Origin: a virus
DNA: 54,403 nt
Reading direction: 5' to 3' (one strand)
IMG/VR virus record: IMGVR_UViG_3300040801_001443
Span: 1 to 54,403 of that record
Below are positions 2,822 through 39,676 of the stretch, piece after piece (within the stretch, counting starts at the first letter, position 1; the number at the start of each line of letters is the position of its first letter). The notes under the pieces are model-generated. The model saw only the letters and a list, made by a program, of their open reading frames with translations. It ran no database searches and was not told the DNA's origin. The translations under genes were made by a program, and so were the position numbers.

Positions 2822-2998
2822 CTAACTTATGATGTTAATAATATTTTCCACATTTTCATTTTTTTCCATATATTCCTCTATAAGAGATTCTATTAATTTT
2901 GATTTATTTAAAGAGTTTGCTTCTATGTGATTTAAAAATTTTTCATAGAGTTTAGCATCAATTGTATAAAAATCTCTACTTTTCTGTTCTTTTTTCAT
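2822..2998 (-). CDS. Ribbon-helix-helix (CopG/Arc-like) DNA-binding protein
   Basis: 58 residues read from CAT at 2996-2998 to TAG. The pattern is a short polar strand (SRDFYTIDAKLYEKF), helix 1, a 'NSLNKSKLI' turn and helix 2 'ESLIEEYMEK', typical of RHH repressors, which bind DNA as dimers through the strand. It is transcribed away from the methyltransferase gene at 3128 and shares that intergenic space. An autoregulator or controller of the methyltransferase is therefore plausible. The leader 'aaaaaataaataaaaagact' is A-rich like other starts here. Confidence 0.7.
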   Translation of the reverse strand: MKKEQKSRDFYTIDAKLYEKFLNHIEANSLNKSKLIESLIEEYMEKNENVENIINIIS

Positions 2999-3096
2999 AG
3001 TCTTTTTATTTATTTTTTAATATATCTTTATATATTAAAAATGAATGTGTTTTTTGTGAAAAATGTGAAAAATGTGAAAAAACTAAATTTATATTT

Positions 3097-5347: not shown

Positions 5348-8300
5348 ATGATAAATGATAAAAGTTTCCAATTGTTAAGAACAAATCCAGCATTAACTGG
5401 TAATGTTAAGGTTGTTGTTGATAGTGATTATGATTTGTATTTAGAATCATATAATTCAATTCCAATGTTAAATAGGTCTGAATATAAGCATAAAATGATG
5501 ACTGAAGATGATATGTATGATCTTGCAGTGTCTAATTTTTTCTATAAATTATCACCAGATATAGTATTTTCTAAGAGAGAAAAGATGAATTTAGATTCAG
5601 ATTCTATAAATAATAGATATTATTATCAATATGATCCAATTTATTTTTCAGGTGGAAAAAATATTGAAGATCAATGGTATAATGAAGAATTTGAATATAA
5701 TGCACCATTATATATTAGACCAAATAATTTACCAGAATCCTTTGTTATTTTAAGAGTAGATGACCCTGCAATTTTCAATAAAGAAACTGGATATGATATT
5801 GATGGATTAAATAAAGATAATTTCAGAAGTGAAATAATAGATAAATGGAAAGCTGTAAAATCATTTGATTTAACAAATGACACTAAATTGGGAAGTTGGG
5901 TTGATAAAAACTTTAGAAATAATAAAAGATATCCAAATAAAAGTTTTGAATTTAGTGCTGATATAGTGACTAATTCAACTTGGTATGGTGTAGATTATAG
6001 AAAAGGATGTTATTCATCAAAAAAATCTTTTACATATGATTTTTTATCAGTTAGTCAACCTCATTATAAACTGGAAAATTATGTGACTAATGGATTTAAA
6101 AATAATGGAATAATATATCCACATATTGTTAATTTTAAATTTTTATTTGATGATACACCAGCAGATCCATTTAAGTTAAAGAAATATTCATTAAATAGAT
6201 ATTATGGATTTTATATCGAACAAATCGACACTATTAAGCATTTAACGAGTTATGATCCACCAAATATAGTTTCTGGTATAACTATTGTAAATAATATTTT
6301 TGTGGATGAAAATGATGTTAAAAATCCATTATATCCATTTGAAGAAGAATATGATGAAAACTTAGAATATTATATTTATGCTAAGACTGATTTATATAAA
6401 GTTATAAGAGTTTTGGAAAATGATAAATATGTATATAAGATATTATCTGATGTAGCTTTAAGTGTTGATGATATTAATAAGGATGGTATTATTGATATTG
6501 AATATTCACAGAATGAAAGAATATCATATGATGTTAAATTAAAAGGTAGATATTCTAATTTAGATATAGATTCTTATATTAATAGAAATGATGAAAAAGA
6601 AGGTCTATATGGTGATTTATATCTATTAGAAGTAGATGGTAAAGATCATGTTTTAAAATATGATGATAATTATATTGTGGGTGAAAATAATACAGGAGGA
6701 ACTATTTTATCTGGAGATACACCTATAAATGATATGGTTGGTGATTTAAAATATTTATATGTAGCTGATAATAGTGGATTGACTGTATATAATTGGGAAG
6801 GTGAAATTATGTGGCAAGGAAATACATCAAATTCAGATTTACCTTCAAATAAAGTAAATACATTATATTTAGATAATAATATTCTATATGCAGGTACAGA
6901 AAATGGTATTTGGATAAAAGATTTCAATACATTAAATTATTTTGGTAATGTTAAATATAATACATCAAATACTAATTTACCTTCAAATAATATAACTAAA
7001 ATATATTTTAAAGATAATATTGTTGTAGCCACATCTGGATCAACTATTGATTGGTGGATAAATTATCCTAATTTAACATCTGGATATACTAAGACTGTTA
7101 GTGATGCAAATATAAATTCATTTTCAATAGATGATGGAGATTTATTTATTGCAGAAGGAAAAAGGATAAGAAAATATTTATTTTTTAATCCAGAACAATA
7201 TTTAGATTTTAGTTATGAATCTAATATATTTTTACCAAATGCTGAAATAAATGATATTTTAATAAAAGATGATATTTTTTATGTTGGTACTGATGATGGT
7301 TTTTGGTTAAAAAATGGACCATTTGAAAAAGTTTATAATAGTACTACTGGATTTGATATTGGTTCAAATCAAGTTAAAAAAATTCAAACAAACATAGAAG
7401 ATGGTATAATATACTTAACCCTAAGTGGTGGAACTGATGGTGGTATATATTACTTAAATTATTTTGATAATATAATATCACAACAATATACTACAACAGG
7501 AAATTCACTCCAAGAAAATTTATTCACATCAGTTATTAAACCAGGTGATAGTGAAATTGCAGTTGGTGGATATGCTGGATTTCAAATATTTAATACACCT
7601 ATAAATTCAAATTCTACTGGTTTTAATGCATTTGATTATTATTTAAATACGGATTATGCAATAAATTCAAATTCAGATATTTTAGAATATTGGATACAAG
7701 ATAGAGATAGTGAACATTATGTTTCAAAATCTACATCAGAAGGTCCAATTAAATTTGCAGTAAAAAGATTAAAATTTTGTGATATCAAAGACTTTGATTT
7801 TGATAGAATAGATACAAAATATTCAGAGTTTGATTATAGACAAAATAATATTTATACACAGTCAGATGAACATAAATTATATACAGAGGATTTAAAAGAC
7901 AAAAATGTACCTAAAGATTGGAGAACATATAAAAGTGGTATTAACCAATATAAAATCATGAATATATCTTCTGAATATATTGCAAACAATGAACTTTGGG
8001 AACTTAATGATGCAGGTACACCAACAACTATTTGGTCTAAAAATCCAACATCTTGTAAATGGGGATTCCAAAATTCAATAAGTCATTCAGATAATTCATA
8101 TAAATTGAATGTATCATATCAAATAGGATCAAAATATAATAGAACTACTGGATTATTTGAAACAATACCAGATTCAACTAAAAAGAATTTGGATTATTTT
8201 TATCGTGTTGGTGAATTAACCAGAAGTGGAAATACAAGCGATATTGAAAAATATCATTTTTATAACCAAGCCACAAATATAGAAACAAGTTTATTTAATG

Positions 8301-10087
8301 AAGATTCCAGAAAATTTAATTTAGAATTATATTTATCTAATGATTTTGACTATTTCAATTATTTCTTTGATAATTATATGAATCAAAGAATTGATAATAA
8401 TGATGAAAATATTAAATCTACAACTAAATTTTCATTATTTAATAATGGTGGTCAATTTACCAATTCTTCAACACTATTCAATGGTATTAAATATGAAATA
8501 TTAAATGTTGAAGATATTGTATATGATGAAAAAGCAACAAATACATATTCTATAAAAGATATACTAACAGACAATACAACCAATTTTAATGGATATAAAT
8601 TTTCTGTTATTTTTAATCCTGCATATTATTATCAAGATAGTAATGGGGATCAAATAGATAATATAATAATAACGCCATACAGATGGTATAATCCATTATA
8701 TTTAGAAGGATATGATTTCCAAGGGAATAAATTAAATCCTTTTATAAGAGGTTATAATAAAGCATCTAATGATGGAATTGTAATGGAAGATAGTAATTAT
8801 TCTGGTTTAACATATTATCAAGAACCAAGTATAAGAGTTAGTCTAATATTTTCTAATGAAAAGAAAGAAGATGAAATATTATATTTGAAAAAATCAGGAA
8901 AACTATTTTACAAAAGTTCTTTATTAACTGGAACCACAACTAATCCAATATCCACTGATTATAGTAATGGATTTTCAAATACAGATACCTTAAATGAATA
9001 TGTATTCTTTTCTGGATCAAGTTATTATGATGAAAATAGAGATGAAATTTCACAATTTTATGAATTAAGTGCTGGTACTAGTGAAACCTTTATTAATCTA
9101 ATTGATTGGGATGAAGATGATTTTATATCCAATTGGAAATCTTGGAAAAATAATAGTTTACTATATATGCAAGATGGTGAATTATTTAATGGTAGTATAT
9201 ATGATTGGGATGAAGTGATAGATAATAGTAAAGTATCTATAAATGTATTTTTAAATGAAGAATATAAAAATTGTTTAGTTATAGTCAATTCACCGGTATT
9301 GATAAAATCAGAATTAAAGAATTTAAACAATACTGATAGTTTTGGATTTAATCATGGACTATATTATGGAAATACTATTGAAGATCAAAGTATGTATGTA
9401 TCTGGTTTTAGTGAACAATATGTTTACAATCCATCAAGATTAGTAGCTATTAATTATGCAAAAACATTAAATGATATTGTTGAAAAAATTGGTTTTGATA
9501 GTTTAAATTATTATTATGTTAATTCTAATGGATACACAAAATATGAAATGAGTGGAACTACTGTATCACCATTTATATTAAAAGTAAAAAATCCAGAAAA
9601 AATAAATTTATATAAGAATCCATATAATATAATTCCTTTAAAAGGACCATCATATGATGTATATAATGTAGAAGGTAATGTGATAGATTATCCTTTATCA
9701 GTAGTTAGAAAAGAAAAAGATGATAAAACATTAAAAGCAGATATTTATAGATATGGTGGTGAATATGAACCAATTTTCAAGAAAATACAAACATTTAATA
9801 AAGTAGATTATAAATGTGATTGTTCAGTAAATTCAAGAACGGTATATCAAGAAAATTATAGATTTGATGATACTTATACTAATTTTGGTACAATTGATGA
9901 AATAGTATATTCTAAAATAAATGAAAATGGTTCAGTATTAAAATTAGCAGATAAAGATAATTCAAAAAGTTATTACCCAATGATAGATGAATATGGATAT
10001 AGTGTATCTTCTAAATTTATATTTAAATCATCATGGGATAATGATTTCTTCATTAGAACAACAAATAACATAAAATTTAATTATTAA
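5348..10087 (+). CDS. Very large virion structural protein with beta-propeller insert
   Basis: 1579 residues, rich in Asn, Tyr, Asp and Ser, with no signal peptide and a beta-rich look. Residues about 450-750 hold about six propeller-blade repeats of the type 'LPSNKVNTLYLDNNILYAGT', each with a 'YAGTENGIW' or 'YVGTDDGFW' turn. Flanking parts are not recognised. Size, composition and the following structural-looking gene suggest a tail, baseplate or host-contact protein. The propeller may bind a surface glycan or protein, which is inference. A box at 5310 and an A-rich leader support the start. Confidence 0.72.
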   Translation: MINDKSFQLLRTNPALTGNVKVVVDSDYDLYLESYNSIPMLNRSEYKHKMMTEDDMYDLAVSNFFYKLSPDIVFSKREKMNLDSDSINNRYYYQYDPIYFSGGKNIEDQWYNEEFEYNAPLYIRPNNLPESFVILRVDDPAIFNKETGYDIDGLNKDNFRSEIIDKWKAVKSFDLTNDTKLGSWVDKNFRNNKRYPNKSFEFSADIVTNSTWYGVDYRKGCYSSKKSFTYDFLSVSQPHYKLENYVTNGFKNNGIIYPHIVNFKFLFDDTPADPFKLKKYSLNRYYGFYIEQIDTIKHLTSYDPPNIVSGITIVNNIFVDENDVKNPLYPFEEEYDENLEYYIYAKTDLYKVIRVLENDKYVYKILSDVALSVDDINKDGIIDIEYSQNERISYDVKLKGRYSNLDIDSYINRNDEKEGLYGDLYLLEVDGKDHVLKYDDNYIVGENNTGGTILSGDTPINDMVGDLKYLYVADNSGLTVYNWEGEIMWQGNTSNSDLPSNKVNTLYLDNNILYAGTENGIWIKDFNTLNYFGNVKYNTSNTNLPSNNITKIYFKDNIVVATSGSTIDWWINYPNLTSGYTKTVSDANINSFSIDDGDLFIAEGKRIRKYLFFNPEQYLDFSYESNIFLPNAEINDILIKDDIFYVGTDDGFWLKNGPFEKVYNSTTGFDIGSNQVKKIQTNIEDGIIYLTLSGGTDGGIYYLNYFDNIISQQYTTTGNSLQENLFTSVIKPGDSEIAVGGYAGFQIFNTPINSNSTGFNAFDYYLNTDYAINSNSDILEYWIQDRDSEHYVSKSTSEGPIKFAVKRLKFCDIKDFDFDRIDTKYSEFDYRQNNIYTQSDEHKLYTEDLKDKNVPKDWRTYKSGINQYKIMNISSEYIANNELWELNDAGTPTTIWSKNPTSCKWGFQNSISHSDNSYKLNVSYQIGSKYNRTTGLFETIPDSTKKNLDYFYRVGELTRSGNTSDIEKYHFYNQATNIETSLFNEDSRKFNLELYLSNDFDYFNYFFDNYMNQRIDNNDENIKSTTKFSLFNNGGQFTNSSTLFNGIKYEILNVEDIVYDEKATNTYSIKDILTDNTTNFNGYKFSVIFNPAYYYQDSNGDQIDNIIITPYRWYNPLYLEGYDFQGNKLNPFIRGYNKASNDGIVMEDSNYSGLTYYQEPSIRVSLIFSNEKKEDEILYLKKSGKLFYKSSLLTGTTTNPISTDYSNGFSNTDTLNEYVFFSGSSYYDENRDEISQFYELSAGTSETFINLIDWDEDDFISNWKSWKNNSLLYMQDGELFNGSIYDWDEVIDNSKVSINVFLNEEYKNCLVIVNSPVLIKSELKNLNNTDSFGFNHGLYYGNTIEDQSMYVSGFSEQYVYNPSRLVAINYAKTLNDIVEKIGFDSLNYYYVNSNGYTKYEMSGTTVSPFILKVKNPEKINLYKNPYNIIPLKGPSYDVYNVEGNVIDYPLSVVRKEKDDKTLKADIYRYGGEYEPIFKKIQTFNKVDYKCDCSVNSRTVYQENYRFDDTYTNFGTIDEIVYSKINENGSVLKLADKDNSKSYYPMIDEYGYSVSSKFIFKSSWDNDFFIRTTNNIKFNY

Positions 10088-10825: not shown

Positions 10826-11650
10826 ATGGAAAATCTTAAATCATATAATGATTTTATAAATGAAGGAATTAAAGAAAATATAATAGGTGCTGCTTTATTT
10901 TTATCTACATTAACTGCATCAGGAAAAGAAACCAAACAACAAATAATTAAAAGAAGCACTTATAATAAAGAAAAAGCAGAAACTATGATAAAAAATGGTT
11001 GGAAATTAACATCCATAGAAGTTGATACAATATTTAATAAAGTTGCAGAAGAAAAGCCAAATTCTGAAATAAAAGTAATAAATTTAGATATAGATTCTGA
11101 TAAATCTTTCACACCAGGTGGTTTTAAAATAGATGAAAATCTGAAAAATGATATTGATTTAATTTTAGACACTATAAGTGAAATGGGTCTGATTCCATTA
11201 AAAATAGAAATCCAAAGTTCAACAGATAAACAACCTTTGAAACAATCATTTAAAGATGAAATTTCAAGACTTGGATATGAACCAAATAATAGAGGTTTAT
11301 CTGAATTAAGATCTGATGTGGTTAAAAATTATTTAATATCAAAAGGGATAAATTCAGATTTAATTCTAAAAGATGTTTTATATGAACAAGGTGATGAAAA
11401 TAGTCCAGAAGATAGATATGTTAAATTGGATTTCTATGCTATGGATATAAAGCAAGATGTGTACTATCCAGAAGAAAAAGATGATGATTTTGAAATAAAA
11501 ACCAAATATAATTTGGAATTAATCAATGATTATACCATAAAGAAAAGATTAAAAAGAACATCCAATAAAACAGACATGACTAATATTGGAAAATCTGAAG
11601 ATTATAAAGATTTGAATGTTAAAAATTTAAAGTGTCCTAAAAATCAATAA
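10826..11650 (+). CDS. OmpA-like domain protein with capsid-targeting-type N-terminus
   Basis: The start at 10826 is preferred over an upstream ATG at 10775 because it follows an A-rich leader and gives the N-terminus 'MENLKSYNDFINE|G'. That resembles the T4 capsid-targeting peptide MKTYQEFIAE, cleaved after Glu by the prohead protease. A hydrophobic stretch follows (IIGAALFLSTLTASG). Residues about 130-215 match the OmpA-like peptidoglycan-binding fold: 'IEIQSSTD', then 'RGLSELRSDVVKNYLISKGI', then 'EDRYVKLDF'. An internal head protein or peptidoglycan-binding virion component is possible. 274 residues in this reading. Confidence 0.6.
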   Translation: MENLKSYNDFINEGIKENIIGAALFLSTLTASGKETKQQIIKRSTYNKEKAETMIKNGWKLTSIEVDTIFNKVAEEKPNSEIKVINLDIDSDKSFTPGGFKIDENLKNDIDLILDTISEMGLIPLKIEIQSSTDKQPLKQSFKDEISRLGYEPNNRGLSELRSDVVKNYLISKGINSDLILKDVLYEQGDENSPEDRYVKLDFYAMDIKQDVYYPEEKDDDFEIKTKYNLELINDYTIKKRLKRTSNKTDMTNIGKSEDYKDLNVKNLKCPKNQ

Positions 11651-28446: not shown

Positions 28447-28989
28447 TTATTTTTTAGGTGATAGATATGTAATCATTCTATTTCCTTCCATTTTTGGTAA
28501 TGATTCTACCTTTGAAATATCTCGTAAATCTTGTATTAAATTCAGTAATAATATTTCACCTTTTTCTTTATATGCCATTTCCCTACCTTTAAAAAAGACA
28601 TAAGCTTTTATTTTATCTCCATTTTTAAGGAATTTTTCAGCATGTCTTTTTTTAAAATCAAAATCATGTGAATCCGTATTTGGACCAAATCTCAATTCTT
28701 TAATATCTTGTTGATTTTTTTTATTGTTTTTTTCAATCTCTTTTTTCTTTTTCTTTTTATCAAAAATAAATTTTTGATAATCCAATATCTTACAAGTTGG
28801 AGGAATTGACTTAGGATTTATTTCAACTAAATCTAATTCTTCTTTTTCAGCTAATTTCAACGCATCTTCAAGTGAATATATATCATTATATTTTTCACCC
28901 ACTATTCTTACCTCATTGACCTTACCAAACTGAGAGATTTTTATTCCTACTCTAAAATTAAACTCGTCTTTTTTATTTTGTTTTGCCAT
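28447..28989 (-). CDS. infC: Translation initiation factor IF-3
   Basis: 180 residues, the full length of a bacterial IF-3. The N-domain has 'VNEVRIVGEKYNDIYSLEDA' and the signature 'LDLVEINPKSIPPTCKILDY' (53-71). A Lys-rich linker covers about 76-95. The C-domain has 'KELRFGPNTDSHDFDFK' (97-113), 'FLKNGDKIKAYVFFKGREM' and ends 'KMEGNRMITYLSPKK'. IF-3 binds the 30S subunit, prevents premature 50S joining and proofreads the start codon and initiator tRNA. A phage copy could bias initiation towards leaderless or A-rich phage messages. It is 12 bases from the clamp loader gene. Confidence 0.95.
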   Translation of the reverse strand: MAKQNKKDEFNFRVGIKISQFGKVNEVRIVGEKYNDIYSLEDALKLAEKEELDLVEINPKSIPPTCKILDYQKFIFDKKKKKKEIEKNNKKNQQDIKELRFGPNTDSHDFDFKKRHAEKFLKNGDKIKAYVFFKGREMAYKEKGEILLLNLIQDLRDISKVESLPKMEGNRMITYLSPKK

Positions 28990-30872: not shown

Positions 30873-31240
30873 GGGGCTGTATTTGGCACTTGAAATATCA
30901 TAAGAGTATGAGTAAGCAAGTACTGTCATGTATAAATACAGTTAAAAAATGTATACAAACAATTTTAAACGGAAACGTTAATTTAAATACCGAGGATATG
31001 ATGAGTATCCCTACATCTTTAGTAATGACTCCTGAAGTTATTGAAGAAGTAGCTTAATAAAGTAGGTATAAGCAAAAACAGGAAACTCACCCAAAAGGTG
31101 TTAAAAGATTTTTTATTCTTTTGAATTTTGTTCTTAACAAAAAATAAAGATAGGTTGTTAATTTCTGATAAAATTAACTAAACTTGTAGAAAATGATTAT
31201 AATTATGATATTCACCGGAGTTCGACTCTCCGCAGCTCCA
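30873..31240 (+). ncRNA. ssrA: tmRNA (transfer-messenger RNA)
   Basis: About 368 bases. The 5' GGGGCTG pairs with 3' CAGCTCC (31233-31239) to form a tRNA-like acceptor stem, identical in pairing sequence to E. coli tmRNA, with discriminator A31240. The T arm is CGGAG-TTCGACT-CTCCG. A long P2 stem forms between 30895-30903 and 31203-31211 (perfect 9 bases). An internal reading frame ends in tandem stops TAATAA at 31055-31060, about 100 bases from the 5' end, as expected for the tag. tmRNA rescues stalled ribosomes by trans-translation. CCA is not fully encoded. A terminator follows directly. Confidence 0.9.
30971..31057 (+). other. tmRNA tag-peptide reading frame (28 residues, ends EEVA)
   Basis: The likely resume codon is GGA at 30971, preceded by 'ttttaaac', about 99 bases from the RNA 5' end. 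The frame runs to TAA 31055-31057 with a second TAA following. The tag would start 'GNVNLNTEDMM' and end 'TPEVIEEVA'. Bacterial tags usually have about 8-15 residues (some are longer) and end in LAA or similar, the ClpXP signal. The resume codon is inferred by position; the frame and stop are direct. Confidence 0.65.
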
Positions 31241-31241
31241 C

Positions 31242-31285
31242 AAAAAACCAAAAAATATTCTAACTAAGATATTTTTTGGTTTTTT
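31242..31285. terminator. Bidirectional terminator after tmRNA
   Basis: Perfect 17-base stem (31242-31258 with 31269-31285), 10-base loop, A and T runs on both sides. It ends tmRNA transcription and also overlaps the last codons of the minus-strand gene at 31260. Confidence 0.88.
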
Positions 31286-37646: not shown

Positions 37647-37732
37647 TCCCCTGTGGCCGAGTTGGAATTAGGCACTACACTTTTAATGTAGGATTATTAA
37701 GATGTACGTGGGTTCGAGTCCCACTGGGGGAA
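37647..37732 (+). tRNA. Non-canonical tRNA: class II body with UUU anticodon
   Basis: Acceptor TCCCCTG/TGGGGGA, D stem GCC/GGC, anticodon stem CTACA/TGTAG with loop CTTTTAA (anticodon TTT at 37682-37684), a 16-base variable region, T arm GTGGG-TTCGAGT-CCCAC, discriminator A. The anticodon reads Lys, but the long variable arm and 'TGGCCGAGTTGG' D arm are those of Leu/Ser tRNAs. Identity is uncertain. Confidence 0.8.
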
Positions 37733-37738
37733 CTATAT

Positions 37739-37813
37739 GGTGATTGTAGCTCAATCGGGAGAGCACTCGGCTGTGAACTGAGAGGTAGTGGGATCGAAAC
37801 CCATCATTCACCC
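37739..37813 (+). tRNA. tRNA-His (GUG), copy 1
   Basis: Anticodon arm CTCGG-CTGTGAA-CTGAG gives GTG. G-1 at 37739 faces C73, the His identity pair. One T-T mismatch in the acceptor stem; T loop is ATCGAAA, with T54 replaced. Confidence 0.85.
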
Positions 37814-37838
37814 TAAGTTAAGACAAGTACTTAACTTA
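37814..37838. other. Hairpin between tRNA genes
   Basis: Perfect 9-base stem taagttaag/cttaactta with a 7-base loop between the two His tRNA genes. No T run follows, so it is more likely a processing structure than a terminator. Confidence 0.5.
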
Positions 37839-37842
37839 ATAT

Positions 37843-37916
37843 GGCTCTGTTAGTGTAGTGATAGCACAAAAGATTGTGGTTCTTTTAGCATCGGTTCGAA
37901 TCCGATACAGTAGCCC
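37843..37916 (+). tRNA. tRNA-His (GUG), copy 2, divergent
   Basis: Anticodon arm AAAGA-TTGTGGT-TCTTT gives GTG, with G-1 and C73 again present. The acceptor stem pairs GCT/AGC and CTGT/ACAG around one bulged T. The D loop AGTGATA lacks GG. The body differs widely from copy 1. Confidence 0.75.
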
Positions 37917-37920
37917 AAAT

Positions 37921-37993
37921 GGAACGGTAGCTCAGTTGGTAGAGCACTGGACTGAAAATCCAGGTGTCGGCAGTTCAAGTCTGCCTCGTTCCA
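37921..37993 (+). tRNA. tRNA-Phe (GAA), copy 1
   Basis: Acceptor GGAACGG/TCGTTCC, anticodon arm CTGGA-CTGAAAA-TCCAG, T loop TTCAAGT, discriminator A. Fully canonical. Confidence 0.93.
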
Positions 37994-37999
37994 CAATTT

Positions 38000-38075
38000 G
38001 GAACGGTAGCTCAGATAGAGTAGAGCGGTAGGGTGAAGTCCTACGTCGTCGGGGGTTCGAATCCCTCTCGTTCCA
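38000..38075 (+). tRNA. tRNA-Phe-like (GAA), copy 2, altered D and anticodon loops
   Basis: Same acceptor and first 15 bases as copy 1, so a tandem duplicate. The anticodon arm is GTAGG-GTGAAGT-CCTAC (GAA). The D loop AGATAGAGTA has no GG pair, and the loop base after the anticodon is G instead of A. Confidence 0.8.
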
Positions 38076-38080
38076 CAAAT

Positions 38081-38153
38081 GACCTCTTAGCTCAGTTGGT
38101 AGAGCACCTGGCTTTTAACCAGGGAGTCCAGGGTTCGAGTCCCTGAGGGGTCA
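38081..38153 (+). tRNA. tRNA-Lys (UUU)
   Basis: Acceptor GACCTCT/AGGGGTC, anticodon arm CCTGG-CTTTTAA-CCAGG, T arm CAGGG-TTCGAGT-CCCTG, discriminator A. Canonical class I. Its anticodon loop is identical to that of the class II tRNA at 37647. Confidence 0.95.
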
Positions 38154-38159
38154 CTAAAT

Positions 38160-38180
38160 CTAATAGTTTAAAACTATTAG
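38160..38180. other. Hairpin between tRNA genes
   Basis: Near-perfect palindrome ctaatagttt/aaactattag with a single-base loop, between Lys and Ser tRNA genes; probable processing signal. Confidence 0.45.
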
Positions 38181-38198
38181 ACATAATAAACTAAAAAT

Positions 38199-38289
38199 GG
38201 TAGGTAACTGGCTGAATGAAGAGCTTGTCTTGAAAACAAGTATGTTGGGTTAAGAGCCTGGCTTGTGGGTTCGAGTCCCACACCTACCT
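38199..38289 (+). tRNA. tRNA-Ser (UGA), copy 1
   Basis: Acceptor GGTAGGT/ACCTACC, anticodon arm CTTGT-CTTGAAA-ACAAG (TGA), long variable arm, T arm GTGGG-TTCGAGT-CCCAC. The base after the acceptor is T, not the usual Ser G73. Confidence 0.88.
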
Positions 38290-38295
38290 CAAATT

Positions 38296-38377
38296 GGAGA
38301 GTGCCGGCAAGGTGTCAAACAGGGCTTGAACCCCTGGGGTGCGTTTTTCGCACGGGTTTCGATTACTCCACTCTCCG
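38296..38377 (+). tRNA. tRNA-Ser (UGA), copy 2, unusual D arm
   Basis: Acceptor GGAGAGT/ACTCTCC, discriminator G, anticodon arm CAGGG-CTTGAAC-CCCTG (TGA), variable arm hairpin GTGCG-TTTTT-CGCAC. The D arm GGC-AAGGT-GTC has only a 5-base loop, and the T stem has a mismatch. Confidence 0.78.
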
Positions 38378-38383
38378 CACAAT

Positions 38384-38447
38384 CCTCACTTCTGGATGAT
38401 TTTTCTTCCAAAGTTATTTTTCTTTGTGAAGTTTATATGGAGTGAGG
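38384..38447 (+). ncRNA. Structured 64-base element, tRNA-like remnant
   Basis: Ends pair perfectly over 7 bases (CCTCACT with AGTGAGG). Inside are hairpins CAAAG-TTATTTTT-CTTTG and TGGA/TCCA. There is no T arm. It occupies a tRNA-gene slot between two Ser tRNA genes. Confidence 0.4.
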
Positions 38448-38452
38448 TTTAT

Positions 38453-38537
38453 GGAAGGTAAAGTGGCAAGGTGCCACCCTCGCCTGCTAAGCGAAGGGGT
38501 CATTGATTTGACTGGGTTTCGAGTACCCTGCCTTCCT
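38453..38537 (+). tRNA. tRNA-Ser (GCU), unusual D arm
   Basis: Acceptor GGAAGGT/GCCTTCC, D arm GTGGC-AAGGT-GCCAC with a 5-base loop, anticodon loop CTGCTAA (GCT), variable arm GTCA/TGAC, T arm GGGT-TTCGAGT-ACCC. The top anticodon pair is C-A. Confidence 0.8.
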
Positions 38538-38547
38538 CGATAGATAT

Positions 38548-38619
38548 ACGCCTATGGTGTAATGGTTAACATCAGGGATTCCAACCCCCTGGCTCTCTGT
38601 TCGATTCGGAGTAGGCGTG
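38548..38619 (+). tRNA. tRNA, probably Trp (CCA)
   Basis: Perfect acceptor ACGCCTA/TAGGCGT, D arm GTGT/ACAT, T arm CTCTG-TTCGATT-CGGAG, discriminator G. Standard numbering puts loop TTCCAAC and anticodon CCA, with an A-C mismatch closing the loop. A shifted reading gives Gly (TCC). Confidence 0.75.
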
Positions 38620-38658
38620 CAAGTGGTTCTTTGAAATGTTAATTTGATGTTCGATTTT

Positions 38659-38669
38659 TTTATATATAA
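38659..38669 (+). promoter_or_regulatory. TTTATATATAA box ahead of the HNH gene
   Basis: Exact motif, 16 bases before ATG 38686. It gives the endonuclease its own promoter inside the tRNA array. Confidence 0.5.
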
Positions 38670-38685
38670 AATAAAAATTTAGAAT

Positions 38686-39402
38686 ATGTCAAAAAACAAA
38701 TTTACAAAATTAGATGATAATACATTTAATGAATTAATATCTAATTCTAAATCAATTAGAGAAATACTAATTAAAGTTAATTATTGTTCTAATGGTAGTG
38801 GTGGATATGAAATATTTAGAAGAGAATGTAATAAAAGAGGAATTCCCATACCTAAATATGAATATTATGGAAATTTTATAGGTACTTTTAGTAAAGAGAA
38901 TCGATTATCAGATGAAGATGTTTTCGTAACAGGTTCAACTTATGCTAGACAATCTTTAAAAAGAAGAATTCTTAATGATAAATTAATTGAATATAAATGT
39001 TCAAAATGTGGAAATGATGGTGAATGGAAATATGAAAAATTAACATTACAATTAGAACATAAAAATGGTGTGAATAATGATAATAGATTGGAAAATCTTT
39101 GTTTTTTATGTCCTAATTGTCATTCACAAACAAAAACTTTTGCAGGAAAATCTAAAAATAAAAAAATATCTAAAAATAATAGATTTATTAAAGTTAATTA
39201 TTGTGAGTGTGGAAAAGAAATTAGAAAAGAAAGTAAAACTTGTTTAGAATGTTATTCTCTAAGTCAGAGAAAAGTAAAAAGACCTGAATACGAACAATTA
39301 ATAAAAGATATTGAAGAATTAGGTTATAGAGGAACAGGTAATAAATATGGTGTTTCAGATAACGCTATAAGAAAATGGAAAAAGAAATATGAAAATATTT
39401 AA
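38686..39402 (+). CDS. HNH homing endonuclease inside the tRNA array
   Basis: 238 residues. The HNH core 'LQLEHKNGVNNDNRLENLCF' (about 122-141) is framed by zinc cysteines CSKC (before) and CPNC (after), and a second CECG...CLEC pair follows. The N-terminal helix and the C-terminal helix-turn-helix-like 'GTGNKYGVSDNAIRKWKKKY' probably bind DNA. Free-standing HNH genes spread by homing, and tRNA genes are conserved targets. It separates ten tRNA genes from two others. Confidence 0.9.
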   Translation: MSKNKFTKLDDNTFNELISNSKSIREILIKVNYCSNGSGGYEIFRRECNKRGIPIPKYEYYGNFIGTFSKENRLSDEDVFVTGSTYARQSLKRRILNDKLIEYKCSKCGNDGEWKYEKLTLQLEHKNGVNNDNRLENLCFLCPNCHSQTKTFAGKSKNKKISKNNRFIKVNYCECGKEIRKESKTCLECYSLSQRKVKRPEYEQLIKDIEELGYRGTGNKYGVSDNAIRKWKKKYENI

Positions 39403-39446
39403 AAAGAATTATAAAAAATATTAATAAGAGAATTAATAATAAAATT

Positions 39447-39533
39447 AGTGGGATGATAGAGTGGTTGATTGAACATGATTGGAAATTATGTGTGTGAGCA
39501 ATTGTACAGAGGGTTAGAATCCCTCTCCCACTA
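39447..39533 (+). tRNA. tRNA-Ser (GGA), T loop TTAGAAT
   Basis: Acceptor AGTGGGA/TCCCACT, anticodon arm CATGA-TTGGAAA-TTATG (GGA), long variable arm, T arm GAGGG-TTAGAAT-CCCTC. The near-invariant C56 is A. Discriminator A. Confidence 0.82.
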
Positions 39534-39565
39534 CTATTTTTTTTATTTAAAAATAATAATTATAT

Positions 39566-39638
39566 TCCTCTATAGCTTAGTTGGTAGAGTATCTGATTCT
39601 TACTCAGAGGGTCGAGGGTTAGAATCCCTCTAGGGGAA
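39566..39638 (+). tRNA. tRNA-Lys (CUU), T loop TTAGAAT
   Basis: Acceptor TCCTCTA/TAGGGGA, anticodon arm TCTGA-TTCTTAC-TCAGA (CTT), T arm GAGGG-TTAGAAT-CCCTC, discriminator A. It shares the altered T loop with the Ser tRNA before it. Confidence 0.82.
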
Positions 39639-39676
39639 CTAAAAATAAAAATTTGTATCACTACTAGACTTATTTT

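Follow-up and report, generated by a model that had tools for sequence, protein, structure and literature searches.

A phage tmRNA with a long tag from a phage tag family that shares a conserved peptide core

The tmRNA gene and its surroundings

The window analysed here, the whole stretch of DNA under study, is a linear IMG/VR virus record of 54,403 bases. The preliminary description of this DNA proposed a phage-encoded tmRNA, and ARAGORN indeed calls one such gene in the window, at 30873–31241 on the plus strand, with the tag exactly as first reported. A covariance-model search, which that description had recommended, gives an alignment to Rfam RF00023 that spans the full model (1–374) with E = 2.9e-17 and a score of 46.6 bits, against a gathering score of 47. 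Because this score lies 0.4 bits under the gathering score, a default Rfam search is silent on the gene. The shortfall is probably a consequence of low G+C content, as the tmRNA is A+T-rich (30% G+C); with the same covariance-model search, 5 of 14 well-known control genomes also fall below the cut-off. The gene stands alone on the plus strand and is flanked by opposing genes. The gene, its tRNA-like elements and the adjoining repeat are as follows.

30873–31241, plus strand: one-piece tmRNA gene (ARAGORN; Rfam RF00023, E = 2.9e-17)
30873–30879, plus strand: 5′ acceptor strand GGGGCTG, pairing with 31233–31239
31216–31232, plus strand: T arm CGGAG-TTCGACT-CTCCG, with compensatory changes in three of five pairs
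31233–31239, plus strand: 3′ acceptor strand CAGCTCC (sequence, and covariation among relatives)
31242–31285, no strand assigned: A+T-rich perfect inverted repeat directly 3′ of the tmRNA (sequence; its stem is visible in the RF00023 search)

The acceptor stem GGGGCTG/CAGCTCC is intact, including the G3-U70 pair that is the mark of alanine acceptors, and the T arm is perfectly paired. Covariation is seen in both stems across 14 relatives; G3-U70 is invariant in all of them, and the remaining acceptor pairs covary. CCA is not encoded, and the discriminator is the A at position 31240. Overall, the RNA folds 4.8 standard deviations more stably than shuffled sequence. The inverted repeat that follows the gene is probably a (bidirectional) terminator; it has no match in a consensus terminator scan, for which it is too poor in G+C.

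A resume signal, a tag frame and a stop codon, the further features of RF00023 members, are also present, and the window encodes a genuine tmRNA. We considered and rejected a pseudogene reading, in which a non-functional tmRNA copied from a host has decayed. A score 0.4 bits under the Rfam cut-off is what such decay might produce, but the acceptor stem and T arm are intact with covariation, G3-U70 is in place, the resume signal, the open frame and the terminator-like repeat are all retained, and the tag core is common to other phages. Taken together, these features make decay very improbable.

A large structural protein of the window (5348–10087) has its best matches among the 'Mahaphage' giants. 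The match to LR756501 (735 kb) covers 70% of the protein at 40% identity, LR756502, LR745206 and LR756504 come next, and Lak phages are weaker. Judged by these matches, the window falls among the 'Mahaphage' giant phages and is closest to LR756501. Bacteroidetes are the predicted hosts of these giant phages (PMC7162821).

Several other loci of the window deserve mention. The minus strand at 28447–28989 carries a phage-encoded initiation factor IF-3 with both Pfam domains, and an eleven-tRNA array with duplicated anticodons, including His gtg, Phe gaa and Lys ttt, occupies 37647–39639. Inspection by eye places the last part of a zinc-ribbon TnpB/OrfB-like protein (CSNCKYKKKDLKLSDREWTCPECG) at 29–430. 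A common leader, for example MKYLKTYNQLYENK or MENLKSYNDFINEG, starts many unrelated-looking proteins, among them those at window positions 10826, 20998, 43684 (minus) and 43992 (minus), as well as proteins on two other contigs (L023 and L146). We take this leader to resemble the capsid-targeting leaders of T4-like phages.

The tmRNA of LR756501 (L006:2459–3074) has a group I intron in its T loop, at about 2830–3058 (96 bits), and ARAGORN misses the gene because the intron interrupts this loop. When its exons are spliced, the acceptor stem (GGGCTCG/CGGGTCC) and the T arm are both intact. Intron-interrupted tmRNAs of the group I kind are already known (PMC11915505), and the LR756501 gene is like them except that it is phage-borne; the window copy is uninterrupted.

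The tag and its family

The tag and the sequences around it comprise the following elements.

30966–30970, plus strand: TAAAC signal upstream of the resume codon (nearly all relatives have TAAAY ahead of the resume G)
30971–31060, plus strand: tag reading frame, 28 codons followed by TAATAA (ARAGORN; relatives)
30992–31018, plus strand: conserved tag core EDMMSIPTS, common to LR756501 and about 20 IMG/VR tmRNAs
30994–31010, plus strand: possible RNA hairpin GGAUA-UGAUGAG-UAUCC inside the core (MFE and consensus fold; broken in the relative L033)
31040–31054, plus strand: IEEVA, the C-terminal part of the tag, replacing the usual (L)AA (ARAGORN; relatives)

The 28-residue tag predicted earlier, GNVNLNTEDMMSIPTSLVMTPEVIEEVA, lies in the correct frame, and about 20 phage relatives have the same resume site and frame. 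Its end had been described as not of the LAA type, which holds: the tag ends IEEVA, and the canonical C-terminal (A)LAA read by ClpXP is absent. A standard ALAA tag in another frame, an alternative raised beforehand, was rejected, as no other frame of the window tmRNA yields ALAA. The tandem stops that had been reported are present as TAATAA, but the second TAA need not be functional, since relatives carry a single stop. The tag had also been thought unusual. It is certainly long, the most frequent length being 10 residues in a database of 97,179 tmRNA sequences (PMC11915505), but it is not a one-off and belongs to a phage family with an EDMMSIPTS core. The window tmRNA is like one-piece bacterial tmRNA (ssrA, RF00023) in its tRNA-like domain with G3-U70, its T arm, its resume signal and its stop-ended tag frame, whereas its tag is longer, at 28 rather than about 10 residues, holds a conserved core within it and lacks an AA end.

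The window tag carries the sequence that defines this family, ED[MI]MSI[PQ]TS in frame, 6–8 codons after the resume codon. Family tags are 28–33 residues long and consist of a resume segment ([AGD]N-x-YN in most), the core, and then mostly ITR...EEAELLLAA. The resume codon is preceded by TAAA[CT] next to its G in nearly all members, the exceptions being L025 (TAAGT) and L031 (CAAAC).

Members were sought with a degenerate peptide-level pattern, EDMM-x-IPT, in which x stands for serine plus some near codons. This pattern matched 15 of 2.9 million viral contigs, each time inside a tmRNA (13 assigned by ARAGORN, and L019 and L032 by family sequence and frame). Applied to 257 Gb of bacterial and archaeal sequence from 84,980 species genomes, the same pattern gave three matches, all of them outside tmRNAs. 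These three (L050–L052) and another candidate, L164, were rejected as not being tmRNAs, and seven further contigs with the core nucleotides proved to be chance matches except for L146, which is discussed below.

To avoid circularity, a conserved 3′ element of the RNA was also searched with the tag left unused. Many phage tmRNAs were recovered in this way, including additional family members with EDIM in place of EDMM (L076, L103, L104 and L126), and the family members found without the tag carry the core as EDMM or EDIM. The resulting set holds 44 distinct tags, 39 with at least 20 residues and 41 with an AA end, counts that apply to the tmRNA subset selected by the 3′ element rather than to phages in general. 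The set also holds other long phage tag families, AVELSTMTFEDAMAFVGADYAVAA, GKTNVWEAINSFGAPVSQVEFAVAA and GESFVNADGKVFYMDTTAVSYDEPVLMAA. Long tags of these kinds, ...TFEDAMAFVGADYAVAA, GKTNVWEAINSFGAPVSQVEFAVAA and GESFVNADGKVFYMDTTAVSYDEPVLMAA, are seen in L066, L078, L063 and others, and the relative LR756504 has a long tag that lacks the EDMMSIPTS core.

A distant blastn search with the window tmRNA region matched only LR756501, whose tag is GDYKMNAEDMMSIPTSLTGKVATESFVEDLVLA, and LR756503, an equal-length record matched at the same place. Neither a clamp-loader protein search nor a search for the exact tmRNA 3′ sequence found close relatives in IMG/VR. A tblastn search with a 30-residue tag gave no match, and it missed even LR756501, which should match, revealing that this method is blind to such short queries. 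In LR756502 and LR745206, a 3′-element search for a hidden tmRNA returned only a chance match inside a gene; a tmRNA may be missed in these two phages, as both encode SmpB.

The window tag is a member of a phage tmRNA tag family with a conserved core, for which the bacterial and archaeal search found no bacterial counterpart. It is already known that phages can carry tmRNA, that huge phages can encode SmpB and that group I introns occur in tmRNA (PMC4131195, PMC7162821, PMC9004378, PMC11915505). The known phage tmRNAs, from phage G, mycobacteriophages, Melnitz and huge phages, are like the window gene in being phage-encoded, and those of huge phages also occur with SmpB; the excerpts of these papers (PMC4131195, PMC9004378, PMC7162821) describe no conserved long tag families. 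A search of open-access literature found no mention of the tag core or of long phage tag families.

Comparison of 18 distinct members gives 12 distinct codon variants over the nine core positions, 9 of them synonymous, whereas only 17% of single-base changes in the core are expected to be so. In L033 the core departs from the consensus at five bases, among them those that turn the Ser codon AGT into TCT of the other codon class, and all nine residues are kept. The probability that five random changes leave the core residues unchanged is 5e-5, a value that overstates the case for L033 and several others because they were found by the peptide-level pattern. Conservation in six family members is partly search-selected in the same way, since the pattern requires the core peptide. 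Members found by the 3′ element or by blastn, which are free of this bias, show no residue changes other than M to I and P to Q. From these codon patterns we conclude that the core peptide is under selection.

An additional RNA role of the core is possible. The core could even be conserved as RNA, with the GGAUA-UGAUGAG-UAUCC hairpin shaping a long open stretch or binding a phage protein. This hairpin appears in both the MFE and the consensus fold, and the E, D, S and I codons barely change at their third position (17–18 of 18 members), a near-invariance that peptide constraint does not account for by itself. However, the hairpin is without any covariation, two of its pairs are broken in L033 by purely synonymous changes, and the third bases of the terminal P, T and S codons vary freely while the residues stay. 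Conservation as RNA is therefore unlikely to be the main explanation.

Tag ends, SmpB and proteases

Most family relatives keep the normal -AA end. On an RNA tree, the window (EEVA), LR756501 (LVLA) and L025 (LEVA) are grouped with modest support (0.69–0.76). Because L028 (ELV) and L103 (AVAV) lie elsewhere, outside this group, the AA end was lost more than once with the core kept. The EEVA end derives locally from a tag family whose members mostly end in -AA.

SmpB is encoded in six of the seven giant-phage records tested (LR756501, LR756502, LR745206, LR756504, Lak-A1 and Lak-C1), and the lysine-rich tail at the C-terminus is retained in the three SmpB proteins whose full sequence was read. 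The 54-kb window, a fragment, does not contain SmpB; complete relatives do.

The canonical ALAA tag end is read by ClpX or ClpA (PMC3985003). A ClpX-like protein and ClpP are encoded by LR756504, with the tag DNVNSFEQSILNELFAPVEMAVAA (end MAVAA), and by Lak-A1/C1, with the tag DDEIDFRMAA (end RMAA), and the serine and histidine motifs are present in ClpP of LR756504 and the Lak phages. These phages (L175, L176, L166 and L168) bring together SmpB, tmRNA, a ClpX-like protein and ClpP, a set that apparently amounts to a complete tagging and degradation pathway. The ClpX match in Lak consists of two stretches of one long frame, perhaps reflecting an intein or insertion. In LR756501, the closest complete relative of the window, which has the LVLA end and encodes SmpB, neither ClpP nor ClpX was found. 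Set against the relatives with -AA tags, which have both, this lends indirect support to a change of protease, one of the outcomes raised in the preliminary description. Lon was found in none of the phages tested.

This distribution, seen in four genomes from two or three lineages, agrees with co-evolution of the tag end with the protease, as in Mycoplasma. In that genus, the loss of ClpXP is accompanied by a lengthened tag that Lon reads (Gur and Sauer 2008; Ge and Karzai 2009, as cited in PMC3985003 and PMC11986505). The two tags are alike in being long and in having an end that departs from ALAA (AFA in Mycoplasma; EEVA on the 28-residue window tag). In contrast, the Mycoplasma case involves a bacterial gene and Lon in organisms that lack ClpXP, whereas here the genes are in phages, the core is another one and the phages tested have no Lon.

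Possible fates of tagged products

In the mechanism we propose, the phage tmRNA would be charged with alanine, would be partnered with SmpB (phage-encoded in the complete relatives) and would free stalled ribosomes during infection. Alanine and the 28-residue tag would be added to the unfinished protein, and tagged products of the window tmRNA would end (N)TEDMMSIPTSLVMTPEVIEEVA. In this reading the tag has three modules, beginning with the resume segment GN(V), followed by the conserved core N-x-EDMMSIPTS as the putative docking element, and closing with an acidic or hydrophobic end that varies. The core would most likely be bound by a protease or its adaptor in a manner independent of the C-terminal LAA rule. 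Because the window clade has lost the ClpX-type -AA end, turnover of its tagged products would probably be core-dependent, and the protease that reads the tag there is probably not ClpXP. We assign a probability of roughly 0.5 to this reading, a working phage trans-translation module whose tag core docks onto a protease or adaptor, and the doubt concerns almost entirely the partner of the core.

Two other fates of tagged products have to be weighed. If ribosome rescue is what the phage needs, the tag might be no degron in the window clade, such that products are stable and the tag end drifts without selection by ClpXP. Loss of the AA end at least twice (in the window/LR756501/L025 clade and in L028), its change in L103, and the finding that LR756501 is without its own ClpX and ClpP are consistent with such drift. 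Yet the core is intact in exactly these members, which argues against drift of the whole tag peptide, and the ends are still hydrophobic (EVA, VLA, ELV). Stable products therefore seem a rather poor prospect in comparison with core-dependent docking.

A considerably less probable fate is that the tag serves as a phage address label, directing products to a component of the virion or prohead, or to some phage partner, rather than to a protease. A hint in this direction comes from a phage protein outside tmRNA (L146:648–1034), which begins MKRLKKFEEINSQDMMSIPTSINKAEK and carries the tag-core sequence NSQDMMSIPTSI at its N-terminus, behind the capsid-targeting-like leader MKRLKKFEE. The search detected this protein through six core residues, with five more in the flanks also matching, and one serine comes from a different codon class. 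Searches for relatives of the protein found none, and this possible mimic is therefore a lead only. An address label is further disfavoured in that the protein is a single case and a ClpX-type AA still ends most tags.

Docking of the core to a protease or adaptor remains our preferred reading. It is doubtful that giant phages operate a private trans-translation system in which the EDMMSIPTS address peptide is read by a phage-encoded partner and not by host ClpXP. If they do, unfinished proteins would be routed to a phage-chosen fate. Phage tmRNAs were mostly noted before as present or absent; the tags described here fall into phage-specific families with conserved sequence, and in the few genomes tested the tag ends go with the presence or absence of phage ClpXP. 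The reason for a phage-borne tmRNA would thus become testable, and the tags may provide new orthogonal degradation tags.
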